A stretch of 64,000 nt of DNA from Adhaeribacter pallidiroseus. Its GTDB lineage: Bacteria; Bacteroidota; Bacteroidia; Cytophagales; Hymenobacteraceae. Position numbers and translations under genes: made by a program. The first letter of the stretch is position 1, and every line of letters begins with the position of its first letter. The notes beneath the pieces are model-generated. The model did no database searches and had not been told where the DNA came from. It saw only the letters and a list, made by a program, of their open reading frames with translations. The DNA is taken from contig NZ_QASA01000001.1 of the NCBI RefSeq assembly GCF_003340495.1, forward strand, positions 62,001 through 126,000. Direction: 5' to 3'. This document shows positions 4,689-31,324 of the stretch, piece after piece.

Positions 4689-4787
4689 CAGTACAATAAA
4701 GAGTTGAATAAGTGAAAATGCGTATAAGTTAAGCAGTTACGCGTTAGAAATTTTAAATTTTTTTAAATTTTTCGTTGCAGCAATGTA

Positions 4788-5660
4788 TTAAATGTAAACG
4801 CGGCTACCAGAATAATTTTGGCGAAATTCTTTAGGCGTACACCCGTTTTTTTTGCGAAATATCCGGTTAAAATAAGATAGATTGTTAAAGCCGCAGTTAT
4901 ACGAAATTTCGGCAATGGTTTGGGTAGTGTCAATTAACATTCGCGAGGCGTGGCCCAACCGGATTTGGTTTAAACTTTCGATGAAGGTTTTGCCAGTCCG
5001 TTTCTTAATAAACCTACTAAACGATACTTCCGGCATATTTACCACGGCGGCTACATCGGCTAAGGAAATTTCTTTATTATAATTGGCCTGCATAAATTCA
5101 AACGCTTTTTCGATACGCCGGCTGTGGTAGTTAAATTGTTCCGAGGTAAAAGACGAGTTAGACAAAGAACGCATATTCGACGACACGGATAAATCGTGCA
5201 GAATAGAAATTAATTCCAGAACCGAGTCGAAACCAGTTTTTTGCGTCAGCTTTTCTAAACGGGGCCGGAACTTTTCGGTGGTTTCGGGCGGGAAAGCAAT
5301 GCCTTTGCTGGACCGTTCGAGTAAGTTGCGAATAAAACTTAGCTGATTGCGCTGCAAAAACTTTTCGTCGAACAAATCCGAGTGAAACTGCAGGGTAATT
5401 TCAAAAATTTCCTTGCTTTTGCACTGGTGCGTAAACCAGCCGTGCGGCAAATTACTGCCTACCAAAACCAACTCTAAATCATCAATTACCTCTACGTGGT
5501 CGCCTACTACCCGTTTGGTGCCGGCGGCATTGGCAATAAAGTTCAACTCAAACTCGTCGTGGTAATGCAGCGGGAAATTAAATTCCTCTTTAATCCGGTG
5601 AAAAACGGTAAAACAATCATTTTGAGTAAGCGGCGTAATTTCGCGGTAAATGGTATTCAT
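4788..5660 (-). CDS. AraC family transcriptional regulator
   Basis: A 290-residue regulator. The N-terminal cupin-like sensor domain (about 1-160) has the HYHDEFELNFI pattern. The C-terminal AraC/XylS domain (about 185-285) has two helix-turn-helix units and the signature AEISYNCGFNNLSYFNRIFR followed by G-C-T-P-K-E-F-R. It is transcribed away from the mannan-degradation genes and separated from them by 395 bases, the standard layout for a local sugar-responsive activator. A near-palindromic motif (TGATA-N6-TATCA) lies 56-72 bases before its own start, and related 16-mers lie before both GH26 genes, so it may regulate itself and both mannanases. The inducer is inferred to be a mannan oligosaccharide. 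Confidence 0.9.
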   Translation of the reverse strand: MNTIYREITPLTQNDCFTVFHRIKEEFNFPLHYHDEFELNFIANAAGTKRVVGDHVEVIDDLELVLVGSNLPHGWFTHQCKSKEIFEITLQFHSDLFDEKFLQRNQLSFIRNLLERSSKGIAFPPETTEKFRPRLEKLTQKTGFDSVLELISILHDLSVSSNMRSLSNSSFTSEQFNYHSRRIEKAFEFMQANYNKEISLADVAAVVNMPEVSFSRFIKKRTGKTFIESLNQIRLGHASRMLIDTTQTIAEISYNCGFNNLSYFNRIFRKKNGCTPKEFRQNYSGSRVYI

Positions 5661-6055: not shown

Positions 6056-7234
6056 ATGGCGTTTACCTACCAGCGGTTTTATGAAAAGCTAATTTGTTTT
6101 ACTACCCACCGAAAGCCACTTATTGTATTACTGGCTTTTGGACTTTACTATTCTTCCGTTTCAGCTTTAGCGCAATCCTTACCCATTAACCCTAAAGCTA
6201 CTACCGAAACTAAAAACCTGTTTGCGAATTTACAGCGGCTAGCTGGTAAAGGTGTGCTATTTGGCCACCACGATGATTTAGCTTACGGTATCGGGTGGAA
6301 AGACCAACCCGGCCGCTCCGATGTGCAGGCGGTAGCGGGCGAATACCCGGCGGTTTTTGGTTGGGAAATCGGGAAGCTGGAGTTTAACCATTCCATTAGT
6401 ATTGATAGCGTGCCGTTTGCAAAAATGCGGGCGTATATCCAACAGGTATATGCCCAGGGAGGGGTAAACACTATTAGCTGGCATTTAAATAATCCGGTGC
6501 AACCCGCTAAAACCAGCTGGGACAAAGCGGATTCTACAGTTATTAAATTGTTTGCCGATAACAAGGCACTGAAACGCTACGAAGGCTGGTTAGATCATGT
6601 GGCCGATTTTATGAAAAGCCTGAAAAGCGCAGAAGGCGAAGCGATACCCATTATATTCCGGCCGTACCACGAGCATACCGGCAGTTGGTTCTGGTGGGGC
6701 CGCGGCCACGTAGCGCCTCCGTATTACGTGAAACTCTGGCGTTTTACCGTGGATTATTTGCGCAAAAAGAAAGTAAATAACTTATTGTACGCTTACTCTA
6801 CCGATAGATTTACATCGCGCGAAGATTACCTGCAAAACTGGCCCGGTGATGATTATGTAGATATTATAGGATTTGATTTATACCACCGCCCGGAATCGGA
6901 TCCTTATAACACCTTTGTAGCCGATGCCCGCCGCATGGTCGAAACCGTAAGGCAAATTGGCCAGGAAAAACGCAAGGTGTGGGCCTTTACCGAAACGGGC
7001 CAGGAAAGGGTGCCTTTTGCTAACTGGTGGACCGGATTTTTACTGCCCATTATTCAGGATGCTGGTTTATCGTACGTAATGGTGTGGCGCAACGCCCGCT
7101 TAAATCACTTCTACGCGCCGTACCCGGAGCACGTGAGTGCCAGAAATTTTAAATTATTTGCTACTAATCCCAAGGTTCTGTTGCAAACCAAAACGGCCGC
7201 CGAAAACTTGTATGCTCCCGTGCCGGCTCATTAA
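6056..7234 (+). CDS. GH26 beta-mannanase
   Basis: A 392-residue glycoside hydrolase family 26 enzyme, predicted to cut beta-1,4-mannan to mannobiose. The acid/base glutamate is E206 in RPYHEHTGSWFWWG and the nucleophile is E313 in FTETGQ; both are intact. An uncleaved-looking 20-residue N-region precedes a hydrophobic stretch that ends in SALAQS near residue 42, so it is probably exported to the periplasm or anchored. The start is set by a strong ribosome site (AGAAGGA) six bases before the ATG. It leads the operon with the symporter, mannosylglucose phosphorylase and epimerase, as in the known Bacteroides fragilis mannan pathway, where the GH26 partner releases mannobiose. Exact product size is inferred. 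Confidence 0.92.
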   Translation: MAFTYQRFYEKLICFTTHRKPLIVLLAFGLYYSSVSALAQSLPINPKATTETKNLFANLQRLAGKGVLFGHHDDLAYGIGWKDQPGRSDVQAVAGEYPAVFGWEIGKLEFNHSISIDSVPFAKMRAYIQQVYAQGGVNTISWHLNNPVQPAKTSWDKADSTVIKLFADNKALKRYEGWLDHVADFMKSLKSAEGEAIPIIFRPYHEHTGSWFWWGRGHVAPPYYVKLWRFTVDYLRKKKVNNLLYAYSTDRFTSREDYLQNWPGDDYVDIIGFDLYHRPESDPYNTFVADARRMVETVRQIGQEKRKVWAFTETGQERVPFANWWTGFLLPIIQDAGLSYVMVWRNARLNHFYAPYPEHVSARNFKLFATNPKVLLQTKTAAENLYAPVPAH

Positions 7235-7277
7235 AAATTATCTCACCTTATACTTACCCTATAAAATTAATACCTGA

Positions 7278-9152
7278 ATGAAATTAACCACCGGTGATAT
7301 TTGCATTATTCTGGTTTACCTGGTAGCTGTTATTGTGCTGGGGTTGGTGCTGAAGAAAAGAGCTTCGAAGGATAAAGAAGCCTACATGCTGGGCGGTAAA
7401 ACCTTGCCGTGGTACATGCTGGGCTTATCCAATGCTTCGGATATGTTTGATATTTCGGGCACCATGTGGATGGTAACATTGGCGTTTGTGTACGGCATGA
7501 AAAGCCTCTGGATTCCGTGGTTGTGGCCGGTTTTCAACCAAATTTTTATGATGATGTATTTATCAGTCTGGTTGCGGCGGTCGAACGTAACTACCGGCGC
7601 CGAATGGATAAATACGCGTTTTGGCTATGGCAAAGGGGTATTGGCTTCGCATACCATTGTGGTGGTTTTTGCCATTCTGAGCTGTTTGGGTTTTCTGGCC
7701 TATGGTTTTGTGGGCTTAGGTAAGTTTGTGGAGATATTTATTCCGTTTAGCAGCGTTTCGCCTTATTTGCCATTCTCGGTACCGGCCGAATACGTAGCCC
7801 ACTTTTACGGCATTGTTTTTACGGCTTTTGCGGTATTCTACGCCATCTTGGGCGGCATGACCAGTATTGTAATTGGGGATGTGCTCAAGTACGTGATTAT
7901 GACCATTGCGGCCGTAGTAATTGCTTACATCGCGATGCAGAACCTGGCGGTAAAGAGTTTGAATGTGCCGGAAGGATGGTTTACACCGTTCTTTGGCTCC
8001 ACCTTGAACGATTTAAACTGGACCGGTATTATAAACGAAGTAAACGATAAAATACGGGAAGATAAGTACACCTTATTCGGGGTTTTCTTCATGATGATGA
8101 CCTTTAAAGGTATTTTGGCTAGTTTGGCCGGTCCGGCCCCGAACTACGATATGCAGAAAGTGCTTTCCACGAAATCGCCGCAGGATGCGGCTAAAATGAG
8201 TGGTTTTGTATCTATTTTTTTGCTGCCGGTACGTTACGCCATGATTATGGGATTTACCGTGTTGGCTTTGCTGCACTACGACCAGCTTAATCTGCAATCA
8301 GCCACCGGTATTGACTTTGAAAGAATATTACCCGCGGCTATTCTGCAATTTGTACCAGCCGGTTTAATGGGGTTGCTTTTGGCTGGTTTACTCGCCGCTT
8401 TCATGGGTACTTTTGCGGGTACACTTAACGCTGCCCAAGCCTACATCGTTAATGATATTTACCTCAAATACGTGAATCCGAATGCCTCCAACAAACGCAT
8501 CAGCAATATGAATTATATTACTGGTTTAGGGGTAGCCATAGTGGGCGTATTAATGGGCTTGTTTGCAAAAGACGTAAACAGCATTCTGCAATGGATTGTA
8601 TCGGCACTGTACGGTGGTTATGTAGCGGCTAATGTTTTAAAATGGCATTGGTGGCGCTTTAACGCTACGGGCTTCTTCTGGGGTATGCTGGCGGGTATTG
8701 TGCCGGCTTTAATATTACCCCTGGTTTTTAAAGAAACATTAGAATTGTATTATTTTCCGGTATTATTCCTGTTGTCTTTGGCTGGCTGTATTATTGGCTC
8801 CTTATCAACTCCTGCTACCGAAGAAGCTACTCTAAAGTCTTTTTACAAAACCATTCGGCCCTGGGGATTTTGGAAACCAATTGATGCTTTAGTTAAAAAA
8901 GAAGATCCTGCGTTCGAGGAAAACAAGAATTTTAAATTAGACGCCTTTAACGTGGTCATCGGGGTAATCGCGCAATGCTGCTTAACCTTGTTGCCCATGT
9001 ACTTAATTACCCGCATGAACAGCCAGTTATTCGTAACCATTGCTATTTTGGCGGTATGTCTGGTTATTTTAAAGAAAACCTGGTGGAACCGGTTACCCCA
9101 AGATAACCCTACGTTCGAGAATAAACCCAAAAAGGCTTTTGCCGGGCATTAG
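7278..9152 (+). CDS. SSS family sodium:solute symporter, putative mannobiose uptake
   Basis: A 624-residue polytopic inner-membrane protein of the sodium:solute symporter family, with about 14-15 hydrophobic segments. The N-terminal part has the family pattern AYMLGGKTLPWYMLGLSNAS, and G-x-A-P-N-Y-D-M-Q-K-V-L-S is seen near residue 290. It begins 43 bases after the GH26 stop and precedes the phosphorylase, so it most likely imports the mannobiose made by the mannanase; substrate assignment rests on context. It is longer than SSS transporters of about 500 residues owing to an extended C-terminal tail with extra helices. Confidence 0.88.
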   Translation: MKLTTGDICIILVYLVAVIVLGLVLKKRASKDKEAYMLGGKTLPWYMLGLSNASDMFDISGTMWMVTLAFVYGMKSLWIPWLWPVFNQIFMMMYLSVWLRRSNVTTGAEWINTRFGYGKGVLASHTIVVVFAILSCLGFLAYGFVGLGKFVEIFIPFSSVSPYLPFSVPAEYVAHFYGIVFTAFAVFYAILGGMTSIVIGDVLKYVIMTIAAVVIAYIAMQNLAVKSLNVPEGWFTPFFGSTLNDLNWTGIINEVNDKIREDKYTLFGVFFMMMTFKGILASLAGPAPNYDMQKVLSTKSPQDAAKMSGFVSIFLLPVRYAMIMGFTVLALLHYDQLNLQSATGIDFERILPAAILQFVPAGLMGLLLAGLLAAFMGTFAGTLNAAQAYIVNDIYLKYVNPNASNKRISNMNYITGLGVAIVGVLMGLFAKDVNSILQWIVSALYGGYVAANVLKWHWWRFNATGFFWGMLAGIVPALILPLVFKETLELYYFPVLFLLSLAGCIIGSLSTPATEEATLKSFYKTIRPWGFWKPIDALVKKEDPAFEENKNFKLDAFNVVIGVIAQCCLTLLPMYLITRMNSQLFVTIAILAVCLVILKKTWWNRLPQDNPTFENKPKKAFAGH

Positions 9153-19133: not shown

Positions 19134-19619
19134 TTGAACCGACAGCATTATTTTATTTATCTAATAGCTTCGTTGCTGACGAGTGTTGGCTGTGTATGGG
19201 CTTGTAAGCAAACAACCCAAGAAAAACCAACGGTAAATTCCGCCGTATCCCCGGCTCAAGAAATTAAATCGCTGTACGACTTGGGCTACCAGAACCTAAC
19301 CGATATGGATACAGTAGGAGCGGTAGCGGAAATATTGCTGCAAATAGCACAAAAGGAACCCGATGCTTTATTAAAAGGAAAAATTTTAAAAGCTAAATAT
19401 TTTTGGCTGACTGGTAGTTACCAAAATGCCATGCGGGATGGGGTGCAGGCTTTAGCTTTGGCCCAGCGCACCGAATTAAACCCCGAATTACCGGTTATCT
19501 ACTCCATGTTGGGTAACCTGTATAAAGAGAAAAAAAACTACCCCAAAGCTCTGGAATGCGCGGAGAAAGGGCTGCAAGCAGCCCAAGCGCTAAAAGATAC
19601 CACCAATATTATTTTTTAA
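19134..19619 (+). CDS. TPR sensor kinase, N-terminal part (frameshifted)
   Basis: A 161-residue piece with an N-terminal export signal (MNRQHYFIYLIASLLTSVGC, C20 resembling a lipobox cysteine) and tetratricopeptide helices such as PVIYSMLGNLYKEKKNYPKALECAEKGL. It starts at a TTG; the nearest upstream ATG runs into a stop. The frame ends NIIF-stop at a run of six Ts (19612-19617). One more T would continue it as NIIFLIRLKAMFTRSYG straight into the histidine kinase that follows. The original gene therefore very probably spans 19134-20962. As written, the TPR sensor is cut from the kinase. Confidence 0.7.
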   Translation: MNRQHYFIYLIASLLTSVGCVWACKQTTQEKPTVNSAVSPAQEIKSLYDLGYQNLTDMDTVGAVAEILLQIAQKEPDALLKGKILKAKYFWLTGSYQNAMRDGVQALALAQRTELNPELPVIYSMLGNLYKEKKNYPKALECAEKGLQAAQALKDTTNIIF

Positions 19620-20962
19620 TACGGTTAAAAGCCATGTTTACGCGGAGTTACGGCACCGAAATAAAAGATACTGCTTTAATCACAAAATCCTTACCCATCC
19701 ATTTAGCCGGCCTGCAATTAGCCGAAAGCTCCGATAAGTTTGAAAAGGACCGTACGCCTTATTATAATAATATTGCTCAGTATTACCTCTACGATCAGCA
19801 AGACTACCCGAAGGCTATTTATTACGGCAATAAGGCTTTAGCTATTGGTACCAAAAATAAGCAACTGGCTTCCTTGCATTATACCTATAATTGGTTGGGC
19901 GAAGCTTACTTTGCGCTCGGCGAAAGAACAAAAGGACTAAATTTTTTAAAAAAAGCTTTACAAACTGCCCAAAAGGTAAACAGGCCTTACCGGGTTATGG
20001 AGTTATACCAAGTACTTGCCCGTTACCACCAACAAACCGGCGATTACCAAAAAGCTTTACATTTATTTACCAAATACGATTTGCTACGCGACTCGCTGGC
20101 CTTGCTGGATAATTTACGCCAGATGAACGAACTGGAAGTACAATACCAGGCCGGTAAAAAAGATCAGGAAATTAATGTGCTGAAACAAATTCAGAAAACG
20201 AGGTCGCTGCAAATTTCCTGGACTTTAGGCGTTATTGGTATTTTAGTAGTATCGGGCGTTGTTTTTGGTCTCCAATTCCGCACCATCCAACAAAAAAACC
20301 GTTTGCTGCATACCCAAAACGGGCAAATTAACGAACAAGCCGAACAGTTAAAACTGCTGATGAAAGAGCTGCACCACCGGGTAAAAAATAATCTACAGAT
20401 TGTATCGAGCTTGTTGCGTTTGCAATCGAACCGGCTGGTAGACGAAGACGCCCGGAAAGCCGTGAAAGTCGGGCGGCAACGCATTGAGGCCATGTCGTTA
20501 ATTCACCGGAGCTTATACCAGCAAAACAACCCGAACCTGGTAAATATGCGCGAGTACATCACCGATTTGCTCGAAAGTTTAATGGAAAGTTTTGGGGTAG
20601 ACAAAGCGCAGTTAAATTTAAAATTATGCATATCCGTGGCCGAACTGGACGTAGACAAAGCGTTACCGCTGGGTTTAATTATTAACGAATGGGTGACCAA
20701 CGCTTTTAAATACGCCTACCAGCAAGTGCCCGAACCGCAGTTACAGGTTGAACTCCATAATACCAATGGCCTGCAATTACTTATCCGGGATAACGGGCCG
20801 GGTTTACCGGCTACTGTCTGGGAAAAACCGCAAACTTCGTTTGGTTTAAAATTAGTGAAAGTACTCAGCAAGCAATTAAACGGTACCTGCGCCGTAGAAA
20901 ATCAGGGGGGAACTACTTTTAAGTTGCACATTCCGGAAGTAATTTTAAAAAAAGCAAGCTGA
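19556..20962 (+). CDS. TPR histidine kinase, C-terminal part (HisKA_2)
   Basis: The reading frame 19556-20962 holds the rest of a sensor kinase; the first ~25 codons are out-of-frame sequence, and real homology begins near LIRLKAMFTRS (about 19622). It carries TPR units (TYNWLGEAYFALGERTKGLNFLKKAL), a transmembrane helix near 222-242, a short coiled coil, then a HisKA_2 domain with phospho-acceptor H273 or H274 in KELHHRVKNNLQIVSSLL. The HATPase domain has INEWVTNAFKYAY and DNGPGLP. Its stop overlaps the start of the LytTR regulator gene, so the two form a two-component pair. The restored protein would be a periplasmic TPR sensor with a cytoplasmic kinase. Confidence 0.82.
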   Translation: MRGERAASSPSAKRYHQYYFLIRLKAMFTRSYGTEIKDTALITKSLPIHLAGLQLAESSDKFEKDRTPYYNNIAQYYLYDQQDYPKAIYYGNKALAIGTKNKQLASLHYTYNWLGEAYFALGERTKGLNFLKKALQTAQKVNRPYRVMELYQVLARYHQQTGDYQKALHLFTKYDLLRDSLALLDNLRQMNELEVQYQAGKKDQEINVLKQIQKTRSLQISWTLGVIGILVVSGVVFGLQFRTIQQKNRLLHTQNGQINEQAEQLKLLMKELHHRVKNNLQIVSSLLRLQSNRLVDEDARKAVKVGRQRIEAMSLIHRSLYQQNNPNLVNMREYITDLLESLMESFGVDKAQLNLKLCISVAELDVDKALPLGLIINEWVTNAFKYAYQQVPEPQLQVELHNTNGLQLLIRDNGPGLPATVWEKPQTSFGLKLVKVLSKQLNGTCAVENQGGTTFKLHIPEVILKKAS

Positions 20963-21753
20963 TGAACCATCCAGACGGCCGGGTGCACATCTTAATCGTA
21001 GAAGACGAAGGTATATTGGCCTTAGGCCTGGAAGACACCTTGCTGCAGGACGGTTACCAGGTGGCCGGGATTGCCGATAACGGGCCGGAAGCCATGGCTT
21101 TGTTAAAAGAAAATCCCGTAGATCTGGTTTTACTCGATATTCATATTAAAGGCGACTGGGACGGCATTGAAACGGCCCGGCAAATTCGCGCCATTAAAGA
21201 TATTCCGTTTATTTACCTCACCGCCTTTGCCGACGAAGCCACCGTGAACCGCGCGAAAGATACGTTTCCGGCCGCTTACCTTACCAAACCCTACCAGCCG
21301 GCCAACCTGCGCATTGCCATCGAAATGGCCCTGCACCAATTCGCTTTCCGGAAATCCACCACCGAAGCCAAAGTAATTCCGTTGAACAAACCCGTCGAAA
21401 AAGACAAAACCAACCCTTCCGCTGAAACCATTCTGGCTATTAACGATGCTATTTTTGTAAAGCAAAACTACCGCTTCCTCAAGATTGTTCTGACCGATAT
21501 TTTGCTGCTGGAGGCCGACAGTAATTTTACCTACATCTACACCCGCGAGAATAAATTTATTTTGCGTTGCGCCCTGCAACACGTCCTCGAAAAAATAAAC
21601 TTACCCCAGTTAATCCGGGTGCACCGGTCCTTTGCCGTTAATCTGCAGCACCTCGAAACCTTTAACGATAGCTTTATCGTGATTGGTAAGCACGAAGTGC
21701 CGCTGGGCCGCAACTACAAAGAAGAATTTTTTAAAAATTTTAATTTTTTGTAG
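20962..21753 (+). CDS. LytTR family response regulator
   Basis: A 263-residue response regulator. The receiver domain (about 9-125) has acidic pocket residues in IVEDE, phospho-acceptor D59 in LVLLDIHIKG, the conserved T in YLTAFAD and K in YLTKPYQP. The LytTR DNA-binding domain covers about 160-260 (LLLEADSNFTYIYTRENKFI ... IRVHRSFAVNLQHLE). The gene begins on the last base of the kinase stop and ends 229 bases before a 9.3-kb secreted-protein gene. LytTR proteins of this type bind direct repeats about 21 bases apart, and exactly such an array lies at 21761-21813, so the giant gene is the probable target. Confidence 0.92.
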   Translation: MNHPDGRVHILIVEDEGILALGLEDTLLQDGYQVAGIADNGPEAMALLKENPVDLVLLDIHIKGDWDGIETARQIRAIKDIPFIYLTAFADEATVNRAKDTFPAAYLTKPYQPANLRIAIEMALHQFAFRKSTTEAKVIPLNKPVEKDKTNPSAETILAINDAIFVKQNYRFLKIVLTDILLLEADSNFTYIYTRENKFILRCALQHVLEKINLPQLIRVHRSFAVNLQHLETFNDSFIVIGKHEVPLGRNYKEEFFKNFNFL

Positions 21754-21760
21754 TTCTTCG

Positions 21761-21813
21761 TTCGCATACAACCTTTCTTTTTTCGCATACAAACCAGTGC
21801 TGTTAGCATACAA
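21761..21813 (+). promoter_or_regulatory. Candidate LytTR binding array, 3 repeats at 21 bp
   Basis: TTCGCATACAA occurs at 21761-21771 and 21782-21792, and TTAGCATACAA at 21803-21813. The start-to-start distance is exactly 21 bases each time, two helical turns. Characterised LytTR regulators such as YpdB and BtsR (YehT) bind direct repeats with the same period. The array starts eight bases after the LytTR gene and about 170 bases before the giant gene. Confidence 0.7.
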
Positions 21814-21982
21814 TTCTAACTTCTGGCTTTTGCCATTGCTTACCTTCCGGCTACTATAAAAAACAAACCGGCTAAGATGCGCCCTCACGGCTCTTAGTAC
21901 TATTTGTTCCGGAACCCGCGCCTGGAAAGCGGGGAGACTTTCTGTTCCAGTCATAATCTATTAAATTTTTAAATTTCTGATC

Positions 21983-24900
21983 ATGAAACATTATTATCTC
22001 CGTTTTTTAGGATTCTTCCTGTTTTTTCTGGGGCTAGGCCGCACCCCGGTTTTCGCCCACAATTTTTACTACGACATTAATTATGAGCAAGGCAATGGGC
22101 GCGTTAAAGTTACCGTTTCGGTAAACGAAGACGATTGCGGGTCCTGCAACGACAACAAGCTAGAAGATTTAGATATTACCTACCGCTCACCGGTAGATGG
22201 GCGGTACTATGTTTTACTGAGCAATGCTACTTATTACAACCGGAATGGCGATAACAAAAGCTATTGGCTCGAAAACGGCGGTTCTGGTTGGGATGGGGTG
22301 TACGATAAGCAAGTGTATTACATCAACATTCGCCCGGAATGGATGGGCCAAACCATCAACATTAAAACGCACTATTATTGGGGCGATAACGACGATCGGA
22401 GTAACGATAAATACAACGATTTTTATTTTCCGAACCTGGCCTCGCCTACCATTACCTCGGCTTCTAACGGCGAGCAAACCGAAGTACGCTTAACCTGGGA
22501 CAAGCCGGCTACCAATGGCTATCCTTCAAATAAAGTAACGTACCAGGTATATCAAAACAGCCGCTTAATAGGGTACCTGGATTACAGTACCACTTCTTTT
22601 ACCGATGTTACTACCCAAAACGGCATAAAATACGAGTATCAGGTAAAAACCAATGTCGAATATTTGAATGGCCGTTCGTATACGTCGGCGAGCAGCCCGG
22701 CCAGTACCCGCACCGCCTGGAAAAATGCCCAACTGGTACTAACCCCTACCTACGTACCCTGCGCTACCGGTATTACGCTTAGCTGGCCCAAACCCAACCT
22801 GGAAGGAACTTATTCCTACAAAATACTGCGGAGTACCCGTTCCGACTTTAGCAGCATCGCCAATACATTTGAAGTAAACGGCGGATTAAACACCCTTACT
22901 TATTTCGATGATACCAACTTGCAACATCAGAAACCGCATTATTACAAAGTGCAGGTAATCCGGCCGGATAAACAGGTAGCTTCGGAACTTACGTCGGAGG
23001 CCAGCAGCATTACGCCTGATTTAAGTCCGGCTGCGCCCCAAATTTCTTTAATTGAGAGCGGGGTAAATTTTAAAATTTCCTGGAATGGTTACACGTGCCA
23101 AAGCCTTACCAATTTTAAACTCATCCGGAAGGTTAGTCAAGCGGGTAATGTGGTGGCCAATACGACCATTACCATTAACGGTAACCCGGGTTCGTGGGTA
23201 GATGAAAAGTTGCAAGCTTGTAATACCTACGAGTACCAGTTAGTAGCCGTAAACCAATATGCCGAAGTAGCCGGCAACATCGTGAGCAAAGCCGTACCGG
23301 ACCAGATTGCCGATGCCTTGGAATGGGGCAACGAGGTAGCCGAACAGAATAACCCGCAAAATTTATTTTACAACCACGATTATAAGTTTAAAGCTTCTAA
23401 AGGATTTTTTACCAGTTATGTGCAGTTGCAATGGGACGCTAAATACAAAAGCCGCATCGAGAATTATGAGATTTACCGGAAAATTGCCGGTACTACTGAT
23501 ACCCGGGAATTGGTGCACGTAGCCGAAGGCGGCAGTTCCACGCTCTGGCTCGATGAGTTTGCCGAAGCCAATACCATTTATGAGTATACCATAGAAGGCG
23601 TAGCGGCTTGTAACGGGCAACAAATTAAAACCCGCGCGGCCAAAGCTTTGGGCTTCCGGGCTCCGTTTGGCACCGTAAGCGGCCGGATTTATTTTGAAGG
23701 CGGCCAGGTAGTAGAAAAGGTGCAGGTGCGGGCCCGCAATACCGATGAGGCCGCCGGTAAAGCCCTCCAATTTAACGATAACACCGCCGGATTTGACATT
23801 AAAGCTTCCCGGATTTTCTGGCCCAGCCAGGAAGGCTGGACGCTGGAAACTTGGTTACGGCCCAGTAATGCGGAAAATAACTTCGTACTCTACGATCATT
23901 ACCAGAATGGCCAGGGTTTACAGGTAAGTTACGCCGACAAGCGCTACATTCTTACGGCGGGCGCCGAACAAGTAAGCATCGACCCCGGCCTTTTTTTAAA
24001 AAATAACGAATTTCATCACGTTTCGGTTAGCCTAAATACGGTTTCGCGGCAGGTGCAATGGGTAATAAACGATTCGGTTTTTGCGCCGCAGCAACTAACC
24101 AATGCTTTTCAACCTAACGCTAACCCCGATCTGCTTTTGGTATTTGGCAACAACCGCACCTATAACCAAGGTTTTCAGGGCGTGCTGGATGAAGTACGGA
24201 TTTGGAATAAACCCCGCACCGCCGGCCAACTGGTACAGGATTACAGCCGGTTTTTAGACGGCAGCGAACCCGGTTTAATTGCTTACTGGAAATTAAACGA
24301 AGGTTTCAGCGATTTTGCATTCGACGGCTCGCGCGTAGACCGGAAATACAACGAAAACCACGCAAAATTGAAAGGTAGCTACGCCTGGACCACCACCATT
24401 CCCTCCGAAGACCAACTGGCCAACGTGGCTTATACCGATAGCAAAGGAAATTACCGACTCACTAATATTCAATTCCGGGGTTCCGGCGAAAGCTTCGAGA
24501 TTACGCCGTTACTGGGCGTGCATACCTTTGATCCGAATGCGCTTTTGTTGTTTATCGGCGAAGGCGCTTTGAGTCATAACGGGAAAGATTTTAAAGATAT
24601 TTCTTCTTTTCTGGCCAAAGGGAGCGTGCGCTACCAGGGCACTTCATTTCCGGTGCAGGGCGTGCAAATGCTCGTGGATGGCAAGACGTTGCTCAATGCT
24701 AGTAACGTACCCGTTATGTCGGATGCTAAAGGCGAGTTTGAAGCCCGGGTGCCCATTGGTCAGCACGTTTTATCTTTTGTGAAAAACGGCCACGTTTTCC
24801 AGAATGCCTATTGGCCCGCCCAAAACCAACCCCACGATTTTCAGGAACACCTGCGCGGCCAACTCGAAATACTGGATACCACCAAAGTAAAACTTATCGG

Positions 24901-27900
24901 CCGGGTAGCCGGGGGCCAGGTGCAGGGCGATAAACCTTTGGGGATGGGTCTTTCTAAAAATAACCTGGGTACCGCCAAAATAACCTTAGAGCCCGAAAAA
25001 GGCGGCGACCTGGACGAATCGCCCCTAAATTTTAAAAAAACCATCGATGTAACTACTGATCCGCAAACCGGCGAATACCTGACCTGGATTATCCCGGAAC
25101 GGTTTATGGTGAAAGACGTGAAAACCAACAATGCCCTTACCGATGGTTCGCGCTATACTTTCGGGGAGCAGCCTATTCTGGATTTAAGTTTACCCGTGCA
25201 GGATTTACGGTGGGAGTACCAGCTAGATGATAAAGGAAAAAAAGTAGATTCGGCCAGTTACCATTTCAGCAAAAAGTTTGTGCTGCACAATCAAACCAAA
25301 TGGTCCGTTAATAACAACGAGCTTATTGGGGAGAAAAAGGTAAAGCTCAGCGAAAATGGACCCGAAATCGATTTAGCGGGTAAACCATTCGGTGCCCCGG
25401 TGTTTAACATGAATGCCCAGTACGCGTTTCCTTTACAGTTCTTCGAAGAATACGAAAATGCCGACGACCACGAGAAAGAACTAGTACCGGTAACCAATGC
25501 TAAAATTAAAATTGTTAATAACTGGAAGCAGGGTAGCCCCGAAGAAGAATTAATTTTAAATAATCTACAAGGAATTTATAATTATAAATTCCGGGCCGGC
25601 AGCCCTAACTTAAGCGGTACCTACACCTATAACTTTTCGGCCGCCATTAAAATCGGCGACCAGTCTTACGCCGATTTAGGCACTTTGCCCGGTTACATTT
25701 TGGGGCAGGTTACCTCGGGTAGCGGCTTTGTTACCAAAGGCCCCGATGTAGTGGAATTTATTTTACGCGACCCGCCGGGTACCAATAGTTACGCTTACCT
25801 GAGCAAAGGTTCTACCACCACCAAATCCATGTCTATTACAAACGTTGGAGGGAGTACGCAAACCATTAATCCTACTTTTTATCTGGGGGCCAATATTAAA
25901 ACGGCCGCTGGTTTTGGGGTAGCTTTAATCACCGAAACGGATATTGAACATGTACTCTCCAACGAAGATGTTATTACCGAACAACGGATCGAAAACGGCC
26001 AGCTCGTAGAAAGTTTACAGGTTACGGAAAGCTGGAAAACCAGCGACGATCCGGAGTTAGTGGGCAGCGATGCTGATTTATTTGTAGGGCGAGCCATGAA
26101 TTTTATTCTGGGTAAAACCGAAACCCTGGAATTATTAGAACTAAAACCTCCCTTCGATCAGCTCCCGCATTCGGCTCCGTTTACTTATCAAGGCAAAACC
26201 TACGCTTTGGTGCGCCGCCAAGGAATTGCCGCGGCGCAGGATAACTACGGTACCCGGTTTATGTACACCCAGCAGCACATTCAAAATACTTTAATTCCTA
26301 CGCTTAAGAATTTCCGGAATAGCTTGTTGCTCCGCGGCGACAACGTGTACGTCTCTAAAATCACCAAAGGAGATTCCCGGTTCGGCGCCGATAACTACGA
26401 TAAAAATGTGTTTGCCAATGCGGCTTTGTCTAAACCCGCCGAAGGAGTAGCTACGCGGGGCGCTTATTCGGGACCCAGTTATAGTTTTAACCCGGCAAAA
26501 CAAAGCGATCCGGATTCGGTGTACTTGCTCAATCAGCAAATAATTTTGTGGGAAGAAGCATTGCGAAGCAACGAAGCGAATAAAGTAGATGCTAAAACCA
26601 AAGGCACCGCCGAAGGCATTAGCAACGTTTCTTTTGATGGCGGCGTTACCCAAACCTGGGAGAAAAACTTAAATTCGCTGTGGGGTACCAATACTACCGT
26701 AGAAGTAACCGCCGACGCTTCCTTGGAATTTATGACTGGGGGTAAGTTTAATGGTTTTGGCGCTACCATCCGGGTAAAAGCCAACTTTTTTAATAATTTC
26801 AGCGGCTCGGCGGGTGAGTCTAATACCGAAAATCTAACCTTCGGCTACGTGTTGTCTGATGGCGATAAAGGCGATTTTTACAGCGTAGATGTGATCGATC
26901 CTTCGGCGATTAAATTACTAAACGATAAAGGCGACCACGTGGTGTGGGCCGATTATTATAAGGTGAAAGAAGACTTTGCCGACCGGAAAGAAGAGTACAA
27001 CAATGGTTTCTTTTCGCCGATGTTCTACACCCGTGGTGGACAAACCTCGTGTCCCTACGAGGACGACGAAAAAACCCGCTATTACCAGCCCGGTAAAATT
27101 TTAAATGCGGCCACTTTGCGCCGCGAAAAACCCGAAATTAACGTTGAAAACAACGTCGTTACTGGTGTACCCGAAACCAACGCCGCGGTTTTTAAAATTT
27201 TACTGCAAAACAACGGCGATTCCGAAGAAGATATCTGGTACGGGGTACAGGTCGACGAAAACTCCAACCCCAACGGAGCCATTATTACCATCGATGGCTC
27301 TACCCCCAACCGGGCTTTCCGGGTACCGCCCGGCGAAGTAGTAGAAAAAGTATTAACCGTAAAAAAAGGTCCGGGGGCGGTATTTAATTACGAAAACCTG
27401 GGCATAGTACTGCACTCGCTTTGCGAAGCCGGTACGGTTGCGGATACGGTAAAAATCTCCGCCTTTTTCGCCCCGGCCTGTACGCCCGTTACCCTGCTTG
27501 CCCCGCTGGATAACTGGCTCGTAAATGTAGATGCTCAAGGCAAAGTTCCGGTGCAGCTATCGGGTTACGACGTAAACCTGCGTTCGTTTAAAAGCATTGA
27601 GTTGCAATACAAATCCACGGCTTCCAACACTTGGGCCACCATCCATACTTTTTATAATAAAGAAGCGGATTACAATGCCGCTATTGCCCAAAACAAAGAT
27701 GCGGCGGTTTCTAAAATTGCCGGTAAAACCACCATTAACTTTAGTTGGGATATTACCGATTTGCCCGACCGCAATTACGAACTCCGGGCTAAATCGCTCT
27801 GCACGGATGGCTCGGTCAGTTACACCGAAGTGAAAAAAGGCTTGAAAGACGTGGTGCCGCCTCTGGTATTTGGCGCGCCGCAACCCGCCGATGGTATTCT

Positions 27901-30900
27901 GTCGCCGAACGATGAAATTATGATCCAGTTTGCCGACCCGGTAGAAGCCGGTTTAATTAACAAGAGCAATATTACGGTACGGGGAGTTCTGAATGGCTCC
28001 AACCTGGCGCACGGGGCATTTCTCCATTTTGATGGTCAACAAGGCCATGTGCGCATTCCGGAAGGTTTGCAATTGAATAACCGTTCGTTTACCGTGGAGT
28101 TCTGGGCGCGGGTAAATTCTAATTCGGCGAATGAAGACCGGATCCTCTTTACCCAAGGCACCGGAACAGAAGCCGTAACCATTGGTTTTGATAAGGCCGG
28201 TAAACTGTTCGCGGGTTGGGGATCCACGCCCCGCGTATTAGCCGATAAAACATCGCCAGCCACAATTTGGCAACACTATGCCGTTTCCTACGACGCAACC
28301 GCTGGTAAAGTAAGCCTCTATGGCAATGATCAGTTATTAGCCGAAAAAAACCAGGTGGAAGTAGTTACCACGCAAGGCGTAGTTTACGTGGGTTATTCGC
28401 CGGTTAACGGCAATGCCTTTCAGGGTGATGTACACGCCCTCCGCGTTTGGGATCAGTTTAAAACCCGCGACGAAGTATACGCCGGACAATCTATCCAGTC
28501 GAATGGGGGAGAACGCGGGTTAATCGGTTACTGGCCGTTCAACGATTTAAAAGGAACTGCCGCCAAAGATCTGGCCCGGGCTTTACACGCCGAAGTAGCC
28601 GCCCAGTGGGTAACCGAACCTGCTTCCAAAGCCATTTCGCTGAACGGCAACGGCTACGTTCAAGTAAATAGCGGCCATACTCCTGTTACCCAGGAAGGTG
28701 ATTTTACGCTCGAATTCTGGTATAAAGGCGGGGCTAATGCCGCCAAAACGGCCTTATTCTCGGCCGCTTTACTCAACACCGATGTAAAATGGGCACTGGA
28801 ATTCGACGAGCAAGGCGCTATTTTCCTGAAACAAAATGATCAGTTGTTTAACGCCGTGGATAATAATACCTTGGATGGAAAATGGCACCACCTGGCGATG
28901 GTTGTAGACCGCCGAGGCAATTTATCGTTCTTGCTGGATGGGGCGCTTACCAATTACCGTAAGGCCGATGTATTGGCGAAATTAACCGTTCCGGCTTTGT
29001 ACTTCGGGGTGCGTTTCGACCAAACTTCCACGGCCGGCGGTACGCCTAAAGAGTCTTTTACTAATTATTTTAAAGGCCAGCTCGATGAAATTCGCTTTTG
29101 GAACTCGGCCCGGACCACCGAACAAATCAATCGCTCCCTCACTACGAAACTGCCCACCGACTTGGCCGACTTACAGATTTACTATCCGTTCGAAGCCTAC
29201 CAGGATAACAGCGGCGTGATGCTTTCAATCGAATCTAATCGGGAGCAAAGCGGCAAAACAAACGATCAGGCTACTTTCGTGAATGCCACTTACACCAACG
29301 AATCCCCGAAGATAGACCGGCCGCAACCCGAGCAAAAAGTAGATTTTAACTACGTCATCAACAACGATAAATTGCTGATTACCCTAAACGAGCCGCAGGA
29401 ATTAGTGGAGAAAACCATTCTGGATATAACGGTGCAAGGCGTTATGGATAAAAACAGCAACGTAATGCCCGGCGCTAAAACCTGGTCGGTGTTCGTGGAT
29501 AAAAATCAAGTAAAATGGGTGGATTCTAACCGGAATTTTGAAAAAGAAGTAAACAAACCTTTACAATTCGAAGTGGAGATTACAAACATGGGCGGCAACC
29601 AGGAAAGTTTTCAAATTAATGGTTTGCCGGGTTGGTTAACGGTTAGTCCGGCCAGTGGTTCCATTGAGCCCAACAGTCGTAAAACCTTGGTGTTTACCGT
29701 AATCGAAAGCTTAAACATGGGCCGGTATACCGAAGATATTTTGCTGAGAACCAACTTTGGTTACGACGAGAAACTGGCCTTGCACCTGAAAGTGTTTACC
29801 CCGGCTCCCGAATGGACCGTAAATCCGCGCAATTTCAGTAAATCCATGAGCATTATCGGCCAGGTAAAAATCAACGATCAATTTTCGATTAATCCGGACG
29901 ATAAAGTAGCGGCCTTTGTAAACGGGCAATGCCGGGGAGTAGCGCGCCTGGAGTACGTACCGGCCTACGACCGTTACCTGTTCTTTATGCAAGTATACGG
30001 CCAGGGGGTTGCCAACGAAAAAATAAGCTTTCAGATCTGGAATGCCAATGTAGGAGTCACGCATACCGAGGTGATTCCTGCTACCCTGGCTTTTGAAGAT
30101 GGGATGGTGCATGGCTCCACCGCTAACCCCTACATATTAACTGCTAACAACATTATTTACCAGGAACTGGACTTAAAAGCTGGCTGGAACTGGATTTCCT
30201 TTAACGTGGATGTGAAAAACAAAGATCTCGCTTCGGTATTGGACCCCACTGCCATTGATCGTAGTTCCGTATTTATGTCGCAGGATTGGGTAGCCGATTA
30301 TTCGGCTGGCGTCTGGTCTCCACCCGGCAAACAGGTTACCAATGTGGCCGGCTATTTACTAAAAGTAGCCGCCGCCAAGCAGCTGAAGGTAAAAGGTGCC
30401 ATGTTAAATCCGGCTAACGAGATTATTACGCTCAAAAAAGGCTGGAACTGGATTGGTTACACGCCGCAGGTAAATATGCCGGTGCCCGATGCTTTAGCCG
30501 GCGTAAATTTAGCCGACGGGGATATTATTAAAAGCCAAACCGATTTTGCCGTGTACGATCAGAATAAAGGCTGGGTAGGAAGTTTAAAAACCCTTAAAAC
30601 CGGGCAAGGCTACCGTATTCAGTCCTCCCAAAATACCGATCTTAAATTTACTTATCCGAAAACGTCCATTAACTCGGGTAATCGTTTGGCCAACGAAGAG
30701 TCGCCGTTAGCGAAGTTGGTGAATCCGGGAGTATTCCGGTACAATATGAACCTGGTGGCCGAAGTTGTCTCGGACCAAATAACCGAAGAAACCGGCATTC
30801 TGGTACACAATGCAGCTAACGGCGAAAAAGTAGGTTGGGGTACTGGTTACGAGATAGAGGGCAAAATCCTATTCTTTATTACCATGTTTGCAAACCTGGA

Positions 30901-31324
30901 AAACCAAGGATTGCGTTTCACTTACCACGATAAAGCCGGCAACTTACTGGTAAACCTGAAAGAAACCATGAATTTCCAGAGTGAGCAAATTATGGGCAGT
31001 ATTTTGAAACCCTTCCAATTTACTATCAACGGCACCTGGGAAAAACCAGCAACAGCTACCATAAAAGCCGCCCGGGTGTTCCCCAATCCGTTTGCCGAAA
31101 CTTTTACGATAGAGTGGCAAAATAACCCCAACGAAACGGTTATGCTGGACTTGTACGACGTAGCGGGCAGGCAAGTAAAACGACTGTGGAGCGGCCAAGT
31201 AGCTACAGATTTAGGTTCCTATACGTGCCCAGCGCAACAGCAAGCATCTTTAAGAGCCGGCGTTTATTTCCTGCGGATTACCCAAGGGGCAAAACAGGAA
31301 ATGGTTAGAGTAATTAAAAACTAG
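21983..31324 (+). CDS. Giant type IX-secreted LamG/FN3-like surface protein
   Basis: A 3113-residue exported protein of unknown function. Signal peptide: about 1-26 (ends PVFAH). Residues about 27-150 form an aromatic- and Asp-rich domain with a CGSC pair that I do not recognise. Fibronectin III-like repeats cover about 150-560. Concanavalin/LamG-like domains lie at about 590-780, 2005-2200 and 2215-2415; each ends in a pattern like FQGVLDEVRIWNKPRT or FKGQLDEIRFWNSART. A BACON/Ig-like segment is near 2530-2610, and the repeated phrase K-x-GWNWI (about 2733 and 2816) marks two similar modules. The last ~85 residues are a type A type IX sorting domain (ARVFPNPFAETFTIEW). It follows the LytTR pair and its array, and has its own terminator. 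A surface adhesin or matrix component is likely; no catalytic domain is seen. Confidence 0.88.
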   Translation: MKHYYLRFLGFFLFFLGLGRTPVFAHNFYYDINYEQGNGRVKVTVSVNEDDCGSCNDNKLEDLDITYRSPVDGRYYVLLSNATYYNRNGDNKSYWLENGGSGWDGVYDKQVYYINIRPEWMGQTINIKTHYYWGDNDDRSNDKYNDFYFPNLASPTITSASNGEQTEVRLTWDKPATNGYPSNKVTYQVYQNSRLIGYLDYSTTSFTDVTTQNGIKYEYQVKTNVEYLNGRSYTSASSPASTRTAWKNAQLVLTPTYVPCATGITLSWPKPNLEGTYSYKILRSTRSDFSSIANTFEVNGGLNTLTYFDDTNLQHQKPHYYKVQVIRPDKQVASELTSEASSITPDLSPAAPQISLIESGVNFKISWNGYTCQSLTNFKLIRKVSQAGNVVANTTITINGNPGSWVDEKLQACNTYEYQLVAVNQYAEVAGNIVSKAVPDQIADALEWGNEVAEQNNPQNLFYNHDYKFKASKGFFTSYVQLQWDAKYKSRIENYEIYRKIAGTTDTRELVHVAEGGSSTLWLDEFAEANTIYEYTIEGVAACNGQQIKTRAAKALGFRAPFGTVSGRIYFEGGQVVEKVQVRARNTDEAAGKALQFNDNTAGFDIKASRIFWPSQEGWTLETWLRPSNAENNFVLYDHYQNGQGLQVSYADKRYILTAGAEQVSIDPGLFLKNNEFHHVSVSLNTVSRQVQWVINDSVFAPQQLTNAFQPNANPDLLLVFGNNRTYNQGFQGVLDEVRIWNKPRTAGQLVQDYSRFLDGSEPGLIAYWKLNEGFSDFAFDGSRVDRKYNENHAKLKGSYAWTTTIPSEDQLANVAYTDSKGNYRLTNIQFRGSGESFEITPLLGVHTFDPNALLLFIGEGALSHNGKDFKDISSFLAKGSVRYQGTSFPVQGVQMLVDGKTLLNASNVPVMSDAKGEFEARVPIGQHVLSFVKNGHVFQNAYWPAQNQPHDFQEHLRGQLEILDTTKVKLIGRVAGGQVQGDKPLGMGLSKNNLGTAKITLEPEKGGDLDESPLNFKKTIDVTTDPQTGEYLTWIIPERFMVKDVKTNNALTDGSRYTFGEQPILDLSLPVQDLRWEYQLDDKGKKVDSASYHFSKKFVLHNQTKWSVNNNELIGEKKVKLSENGPEIDLAGKPFGAPVFNMNAQYAFPLQFFEEYENADDHEKELVPVTNAKIKIVNNWKQGSPEEELILNNLQGIYNYKFRAGSPNLSGTYTYNFSAAIKIGDQSYADLGTLPGYILGQVTSGSGFVTKGPDVVEFILRDPPGTNSYAYLSKGSTTTKSMSITNVGGSTQTINPTFYLGANIKTAAGFGVALITETDIEHVLSNEDVITEQRIENGQLVESLQVTESWKTSDDPELVGSDADLFVGRAMNFILGKTETLELLELKPPFDQLPHSAPFTYQGKTYALVRRQGIAAAQDNYGTRFMYTQQHIQNTLIPTLKNFRNSLLLRGDNVYVSKITKGDSRFGADNYDKNVFANAALSKPAEGVATRGAYSGPSYSFNPAKQSDPDSVYLLNQQIILWEEALRSNEANKVDAKTKGTAEGISNVSFDGGVTQTWEKNLNSLWGTNTTVEVTADASLEFMTGGKFNGFGATIRVKANFFNNFSGSAGESNTENLTFGYVLSDGDKGDFYSVDVIDPSAIKLLNDKGDHVVWADYYKVKEDFADRKEEYNNGFFSPMFYTRGGQTSCPYEDDEKTRYYQPGKILNAATLRREKPEINVENNVVTGVPETNAAVFKILLQNNGDSEEDIWYGVQVDENSNPNGAIITIDGSTPNRAFRVPPGEVVEKVLTVKKGPGAVFNYENLGIVLHSLCEAGTVADTVKISAFFAPACTPVTLLAPLDNWLVNVDAQGKVPVQLSGYDVNLRSFKSIELQYKSTASNTWATIHTFYNKEADYNAAIAQNKDAAVSKIAGKTTINFSWDITDLPDRNYELRAKSLCTDGSVSYTEVKKGLKDVVPPLVFGAPQPADGILSPNDEIMIQFADPVEAGLINKSNITVRGVLNGSNLAHGAFLHFDGQQGHVRIPEGLQLNNRSFTVEFWARVNSNSANEDRILFTQGTGTEAVTIGFDKAGKLFAGWGSTPRVLADKTSPATIWQHYAVSYDATAGKVSLYGNDQLLAEKNQVEVVTTQGVVYVGYSPVNGNAFQGDVHALRVWDQFKTRDEVYAGQSIQSNGGERGLIGYWPFNDLKGTAAKDLARALHAEVAAQWVTEPASKAISLNGNGYVQVNSGHTPVTQEGDFTLEFWYKGGANAAKTALFSAALLNTDVKWALEFDEQGAIFLKQNDQLFNAVDNNTLDGKWHHLAMVVDRRGNLSFLLDGALTNYRKADVLAKLTVPALYFGVRFDQTSTAGGTPKESFTNYFKGQLDEIRFWNSARTTEQINRSLTTKLPTDLADLQIYYPFEAYQDNSGVMLSIESNREQSGKTNDQATFVNATYTNESPKIDRPQPEQKVDFNYVINNDKLLITLNEPQELVEKTILDITVQGVMDKNSNVMPGAKTWSVFVDKNQVKWVDSNRNFEKEVNKPLQFEVEITNMGGNQESFQINGLPGWLTVSPASGSIEPNSRKTLVFTVIESLNMGRYTEDILLRTNFGYDEKLALHLKVFTPAPEWTVNPRNFSKSMSIIGQVKINDQFSINPDDKVAAFVNGQCRGVARLEYVPAYDRYLFFMQVYGQGVANEKISFQIWNANVGVTHTEVIPATLAFEDGMVHGSTANPYILTANNIIYQELDLKAGWNWISFNVDVKNKDLASVLDPTAIDRSSVFMSQDWVADYSAGVWSPPGKQVTNVAGYLLKVAAAKQLKVKGAMLNPANEIITLKKGWNWIGYTPQVNMPVPDALAGVNLADGDIIKSQTDFAVYDQNKGWVGSLKTLKTGQGYRIQSSQNTDLKFTYPKTSINSGNRLANEESPLAKLVNPGVFRYNMNLVAEVVSDQITEETGILVHNAANGEKVGWGTGYEIEGKILFFITMFANLENQGLRFTYHDKAGNLLVNLKETMNFQSEQIMGSILKPFQFTINGTWEKPATATIKAARVFPNPFAETFTIEWQNNPNETVMLDLYDVAGRQVKRLWSGQVATDLGSYTCPAQQQASLRAGVYFLRITQGAKQEMVRVIKN

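Follow-up and report, generated by a model that had tools for sequence, protein, structure and literature searches.

Three 11-bp direct repeats at an exact 21-bp period, which lie between the gene for a LytTR response regulator and the gene for a giant surface protein in Adhaeribacter pallidiroseus, very probably serve that regulator as its operator, within the promoter of the gene for the giant type IX-secreted protein. This reading comes from comparison of sequences and is preferred because the repeat word, the spacing and the promoter geometry recur beside relatives of the regulator in distant bacteria. Giant surface proteins are costly to make, and to our knowledge the means by which this phylum turns on their genes are little understood; among the literature matches listed, no title concerned a LytTR operator there. 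Here regulator, operator, half-site and target are named together by sequence, with a promoter geometry open to direct test. Moreover, the half-site TTNRCATACA, the 21-bp period and the 38 to 39 nt to a -7-like box together can serve as a key when other species are searched for this LytTR clade, and the motif also leads to a small RNA that may be under such control. Throughout, the window is the whole 64,000-nucleotide stretch analyzed (NZ_QASA01000001.1, positions 62,001 to 126,000), and coordinates given without a locus label are positions within it.

Structure and rarity of the array

All three repeats were confirmed as originally described, at starts 21761, 21782 and 21803 of the plus strand; copies 1 and 2 are identical and copy 3 differs by 1 base (Table 1). 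Read as 11-nt half-sites with 10-nt spacers (or as 9 plus 12), they fit in repeat length and spacing the definition of a LytTR operator given in the available portions of two papers, namely direct repeats of about 9 to 11 nt lying about 10 to 13 nt apart (PMC4847170, PMC11347149). The array stands at the start of the 229-bp gap between the LytTR gene (20962-21753) and the giant open reading frame (ORF; 21983-31324). The adjacency to the LytTR gene that had been claimed stands, except that its stop codon ends at 21753 and leaves 7 bases before the first repeat, the "eight" of the earlier count being an offset; between the last repeat and the start of the giant ORF at 21983 there are 169 bases, in agreement with the figure of about 170.

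Such an array is not expected by chance. A triple of 11-mers with at most 1 mismatch, at any period from 12 to 40, appeared in 0/1500 dinucleotide shuffles of the 229-bp gap, and an exact 11-mer pair in 1/1500. Taken singly and with up to 2 mismatches allowed, the 11-mer is no commoner in the window than expected (18 observed vs a mean of 23.16), and thus the signal is the 21-bp array and not the word by itself. When the 6.4-Mb genome was searched for the 11-mer at 21-bp spacing, as the original prediction had proposed, the array locus was the sole match to the pair at up to 3 mismatches (2 overlapping matches), with 0 matches to the reversed control. A looser pair, at up to 2 mismatches, gave no sign of a wider regulon in the 8 genus genomes, its matches never rising above each genome's reversed control (9+2 vs 13+7 in the A. 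pallidiroseus genome), and in the four genomes that carry the cassette only the focal site matches perfectly. Some 2-mismatch matches of this looser pair resemble each other across the cassette-bearing genomes. No site suggestive of autoregulation was found upstream of the kinase gene (best 11/18 positions), and Rfam returned on 21700-22050 two weak matches only, both under gathering scores.

Table 1. Positions of the predicted and candidate features, in the window unless a locus label is given
Feature	Location	Strand	Remarks
Predicted LytTR half-site 1	21761..21771	+	TTCGCATACAA; TTTACATACAA in three congeners
Predicted LytTR half-site 2	21782..21792	+	TTCGCATACAA; identical in window and three congeners
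Predicted LytTR half-site 3, promoter-proximal	21803..21813	+	TTAGCATACAA
Putative -7 box, TACCTTCC	21841..21848	+	38 nt past start of half-site 3; weak, 4/6 to TAnnTTTR, tied with two offsets
Conserved stretch TTCCGG-ACCCGC-...GGG, predicted 5' leader of giant gene	21907..21935 (approximate limits)	+	Kept in window and three congeners
TPR / HisKA_2 / HATPase_c histidine kinase	19134..20962	+	Two frames: 19134-19619, 19556-20962
Response regulator, 263 aa, receiver and LytTR domain	20962..21753	+	Predicted binder of half-sites
Giant surface protein, 3113 aa, predicted target	21983..31324	+	Three LamG stretches; C-terminal Por_Secre_tail (type IX sorting domain)
Candidate small RNA behind predicted LytTR operator	L263 3712-3904	+	
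Candidate small RNA behind predicted LytTR operator	L265 14771-14973	-	
Candidate small RNA behind predicted LytTR operator	L267 3826-3999	+	
Candidate small RNA behind predicted LytTR operator	L264 15450-15575	-	
Candidate small RNA behind predicted LytTR operator	L266 3880-4009	+	
Candidate small RNA behind predicted LytTR operator	L268 3882-4012	+	
Candidate small RNA behind predicted LytTR operator	L274 14963-15088	-	
Stretch without sizeable ORF	L262 15205-15350	-	Different hairpin, no RNA-model match
Stretch without sizeable ORF	L269 3650-3782	+	Different hairpin, no RNA-model match
Stretch without sizeable ORF	L270 15193-15316	-	Different hairpin, no RNA-model match

The neighboring genes

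The product of 20962-21753 matches PF04397 (LytTR) over residues 171-259 at E 1e-13, its receiver being PF00072, and its LytTR domain has LIRVHRS at the position of FhRhHRS, the motif reported to lie near the DNA (PMC4227749, available text). The kinase is a single ORF in two congeners, G004 (555 aa) and G006 (552 aa), and is split in the window and in the congener G003; the frame split in the window falls at a T-rich stretch, 19556-19619. This split may be a real break, in which case the two-component system may be impaired in those two genomes, or an assembly error.

With its LamG stretches and its Por_Secre_tail, the giant protein is fairly predicted to be a type IX-secreted surface protein. 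Seven giants were compared (from the window, G004, G006, G1337, Hufsiella, G220 and G1182), the one of G003 being excluded because its ORF is split, near residue 318-322 (L082 about 6582-8219). All seven have homologous parts in common, in which the proteins from outside the genus show about 22-50% identity; the C-terminal sorting domain is Por_Secre_tail in the giants of the window, G220, G1182 and G1337, and CHU_C in that of Hufsiella. Between the LytTR gene and the giant gene no terminator-like site was found, and thus read-through transcription is possible. The conserved stretch in the predicted 5' leader could possibly form a small hairpin.

Conservation within the genus

A LytTR orthologue is present in 3/7 congeners (G003, G004 and G006; 86-89% identity; E at most 1e-30), and the same three carry the N-terminal part of the giant (E at most 1e-10), in two ORFs in G003. 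The other 4/7 (G001, G002, G005 and G007, the last a 78% complete genome) are without either at the thresholds used. Comparison of the gap in related species, which the original prediction had also proposed, came out in its favor: in 3/3 congeners with the LytTR gene three half-sites at a 21-bp step open the gap, so that repeats, period and place are all kept. Across the four species the core columns (TT..CATAC) are invariant at 21/21, vs 35/62 of the other columns of the region, a difference for which the Fisher p of 8e-5 is indicative, because the core columns were picked from the motif itself; the spacers vary while the cores stay the same. A further giant relative, 46% identical in the N-terminal part, is found in G048 on contig C6, the LytTR match of that genome being on contig C4; in the 17 kb around this giant relative there are no repeats and no LytTR relative.

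Recurrence in distant relatives

In Hufsiella arboris a regulator 68% identical to that of the window is followed by TTTGCATACAT and TTTACATACAT, 21 bp apart, and then by a gene for a 2321-aa giant; allowing up to 1 mismatch, this pair is the only one in the 4.8-Mb genome. A paired-pattern scan was extended to 395 genomes of the phylum. At least 131/395 have a pair with up to 1 mismatch, and since the reversed control also matches many genomes, a pair match alone means little. Among the matches listed, however, G220 has a perfect pair that follows a LytTR orthologue (46%) at 1.4 kb and precedes a gene for a 2167-aa giant. Other perfect matches among those listed were set aside as lying inside ORFs (G211, G167, G377 and G342) or before aldo/keto reductase genes (G109, G399 and G174), and none of the loci fetched for these other matches has a LytTR relative.

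Within the family of G220, 294 genomes were searched, yielding 28 places orthologous to the LytTR locus. In all, 107 loci with LytTR relatives were scanned (676,745 bases), 14 of them wider copies, so that they represent at most 93 distinct genes, among which Dyadobacter/G1105 and Spirosoma/G1071 are two further pairs that seem identical in the tree. The pair matches at 17-18/18 positions in 17 of the 107 loci, 12 of these within the 28 orthologous places. G1182, in which three perfect copies lie further downstream of the LytTR gene and before a gene for a 1951-aa giant, brings the family total to 13/28, and 15/28 are without a clear site; G1197 has a degenerate version. The site is thus conserved with the regulator in the window, in 3/3 congeners that have the gene, in Hufsiella and in 13/28 places, and it is found in 0/30 loci of family f11 (about 1.5-10 kb around each gene, further f11 matches lying outside these loci). 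In the tree, the named Spirosoma and Dyadobacter records fall among the f11 sequences. The scanned relatives from the window's family outside its genus have no site. Behind 17 LytTR relatives that have other neighbors, a look for different 21-bp repeats gave nothing strong (best 10/12, L174).

This recurrence beside LytTR orthologues in the congeners, in Hufsiella and in the family of G220 supports the claim that the sequence predicts both the binding site and the target of the two-component system. Three copies as a rule must be rejected, since Hufsiella and most relatives have two. The cooperative binding at three sites that had been suggested is something we can only infer, because relatives carry either 2 or 3 copies.

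Promoter geometry and a proposed mechanism

The sigma-A -7 consensus of Bacteroidota is TAnnTTTG, placed at -12 to -5 (PMC9723704, available text); it was scored here as TAnnTTTR, the final A being allowed by our own choice, over offsets 20-59. In 18 promoters, which are related by descent and thus not independent, the best match is found 38 nt past the last repeat's first base 11 times and 39 nt past it 3 times. Of the 4/18 exceptions, the window is tied, G220 and G1337 have their best match at 59, a full period beyond, and one of two sites in G1387 has none. Read separately, G1182 has a perfect -7-like match at 38 and the degenerate site of G1197 has one at 37. At the distance of the weak box in the window, the three congeners have TACATTCA, which agrees at 5/6 positions with TAnnTTTR. 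Taken with the consensus position, the box would place the start site near 21853 and the last repeat at about -50 to -40; the 27 nt between this repeat and the box would place the repeat just upstream of the -33 region.

From these features a mechanism may be proposed. The domains suggest that the TPR-type HisKA_2 kinase would sense a signal and phosphorylate the regulator, molecules of which would bind the TTNRCATACA half-sites side by side, two helical turns apart and along the same face of the helix. The molecule nearest the promoter would then sit just upstream of the -33 region, and with a -7-like box 38 nt past the start of its half-site RNA polymerase would most likely be recruited, that is, the giant gene would be activated. 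The site would be the single strong local target of the regulator in its own genome.

Comparison with known LytTR operators

The BtsR (YehT)-btsT system of Escherichia coli is reportedly another with a 21-bp LytTR operator. The available portion of PMC5552118 gives no repeat spacing for BtsR. For the other system named in the original prediction, YpdA/YpdB-yhjX of E. coli, the claimed geometry is borne out: in the part of PMC4847170 at hand, YpdB has GGCATTTCAT twice, at a 21-bp period counted in the printed oligonucleotide, and one direct target. Like YpdB, the regulator of the window is a LytTR response regulator with a 21-bp direct repeat and a single predicted direct target gene. Unlike YpdB, it has three sites in place of two, a different half-site sequence and a TPR-HisKA_2 kinase, whereas the YpdB target is a transporter and its kinase is of the LytS type.

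Three sites are already known for LytTR domains, since CoxC of Afipia carboxidovorans and RcoM1 of Paraburkholderia xenovorans place a LytTR domain on three direct repeats two helical turns apart (PMC11347149, available portion). The spacing for CoxC is 18-21 bp, and the half-sites of both begin with TT (TTNNNGCN and TTCNNGCA), as do the three repeats of the window, also at two helical turns. In contrast, CoxC and RcoM1 are described in that source as gas-sensing regulators, not two-component ones, with other targets. AgrA of Staphylococcus aureus is similar in its FhRhHRS-type motif and in having direct repeats upstream of its target promoters, but its promoter-proximal repeats are centered near -60 (PMC4227749, available text), whereas the last repeat of the window would lie at about -50 to -40.

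Alternative readings

The most serious alternative accepts a LytTR operator and reverses its sign, so that the array would repress the giant gene. CoxC, whose operator is the closest published one with three LytTR repeats that we found, is indeed a repressor, but its repeats overlap the -35 box (PMC11347149, in the part available), whereas the last repeat of the window would fall just upstream of the -33 region, and according to the same source most LytTR regulators are activators that bind upstream of -35. Repression is on these grounds unlikely.

A different regulator altogether is very improbable, although it has a concrete form, for proteins of the AraC family also use direct half-sites two helical turns apart and one encoded elsewhere could read the repeats. 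In G005, G174 and G004 an aldo/keto reductase gene is preceded by a pair of the type TTTGCATACAA-N10-TTTGCATACAA, and an AraC-type gene follows (so typed by a domain scan of the G005 protein, of which G174 and G004 have relatives), similar pairs stand before such genes in G109, G399 and G422, and the A. pallidiroseus genome itself has 8 matches to the G005 AraC protein, the best 54% identical. Hence neither the half-site word nor the 21-bp period proves LytTR. The promoters do differ: the look-alikes have their -7-like box at 30 nt (best in 3/3, best or tied best in 4/4 more), against the 38-39 nt of the LytTR sites, and G220, which has the giant-type site, has a best match to the AraC protein of only 28% identity. 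An AraC operator at the focal site was rejected on these two counts, and the giant-type site moreover recurs beside a LytTR gene in distant families. Curiously, regulators of two unrelated types seem to recognize nearly identical half-sites. The aldo/keto promoters with TTTGCATACAA-like half-sites, several of them AraC-linked, are at L165 about 5596, L166 about 5342, L167 about 5343, L182 3161, L183 3261 and L190 3399.

That the repeats are a functionless tandem array born of chance or mutation, as three short copies of a word that is not enriched in the window might suggest, can be dismissed given the 0/1500 shuffles, the invariant cores among varying spacers in four species and the recurrence beside LytTR orthologues.

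A possible cassette with exchangeable outputs

For the LytTR operator reading, the loci taken together incline us to see a cassette spread across several families of the phylum, made up of a TPR-HisKA_2 kinase, a LytTR regulator, the half-site TTNRCATACA in two or three copies at a 21-bp step and a -7-like box 38-39 nt on, with an exchangeable output. That output would be a giant type IX-secreted protein (in the window's genus, Hufsiella, G220, G1182 and G1337), a divergent pair of small surface-protein-like genes (G1387), or a small RNA (in nine genomes of a single family, or ten if the degenerate site is counted).

The nine (G1284, G1361, G1272, G1317, G1401, G1396, G1322, G1334 and G1213) have the site and the -7-like box with no sizeable gene next to them, there being no ATG-started ORF of at least 120 aa on that strand before a gene comes in from the opposite side. 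With G1197 included, 8/10 of the stretches hold short ORFs, two are without an ORF of at least 12 aa, and no peptide is common to all. A terminator-like hairpin with a T-rich tail ends the stretch in 7/10 (G1361, G1317, G1396, G1272, G1401, G1322 and G1197) and is not evident in the other three, and the last ~97 nt of these seven have a consensus fold in which 3/18 pairs are changed on both sides. A transcript would span about 125-200 nt between the -7 box and the final hairpin. Rfam gave no match up to E 1 at the nine loci with an RNA-like stretch. An RNA model built from the seven sequences matches strongly only those seven; it finds nothing in the window, and among the other giant-gene loci its top match (L084, E 0.17) falls outside the leader. 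Nor does it match the stretches at L262, L269 and L270, which also lie behind the predicted operator and have a different hairpin. These stretches are, then, a candidate small RNA under a predicted LytTR promoter, not a proven one.

G1387 presents another arrangement (L271 about 4755-5145), in which two operator-like pairs, about 1.2-1.3 kb past the LytTR gene, are oriented divergently, with a small collagen-like gene on one side and on the other a 551-aa gene whose start resembles that of a lipoprotein.
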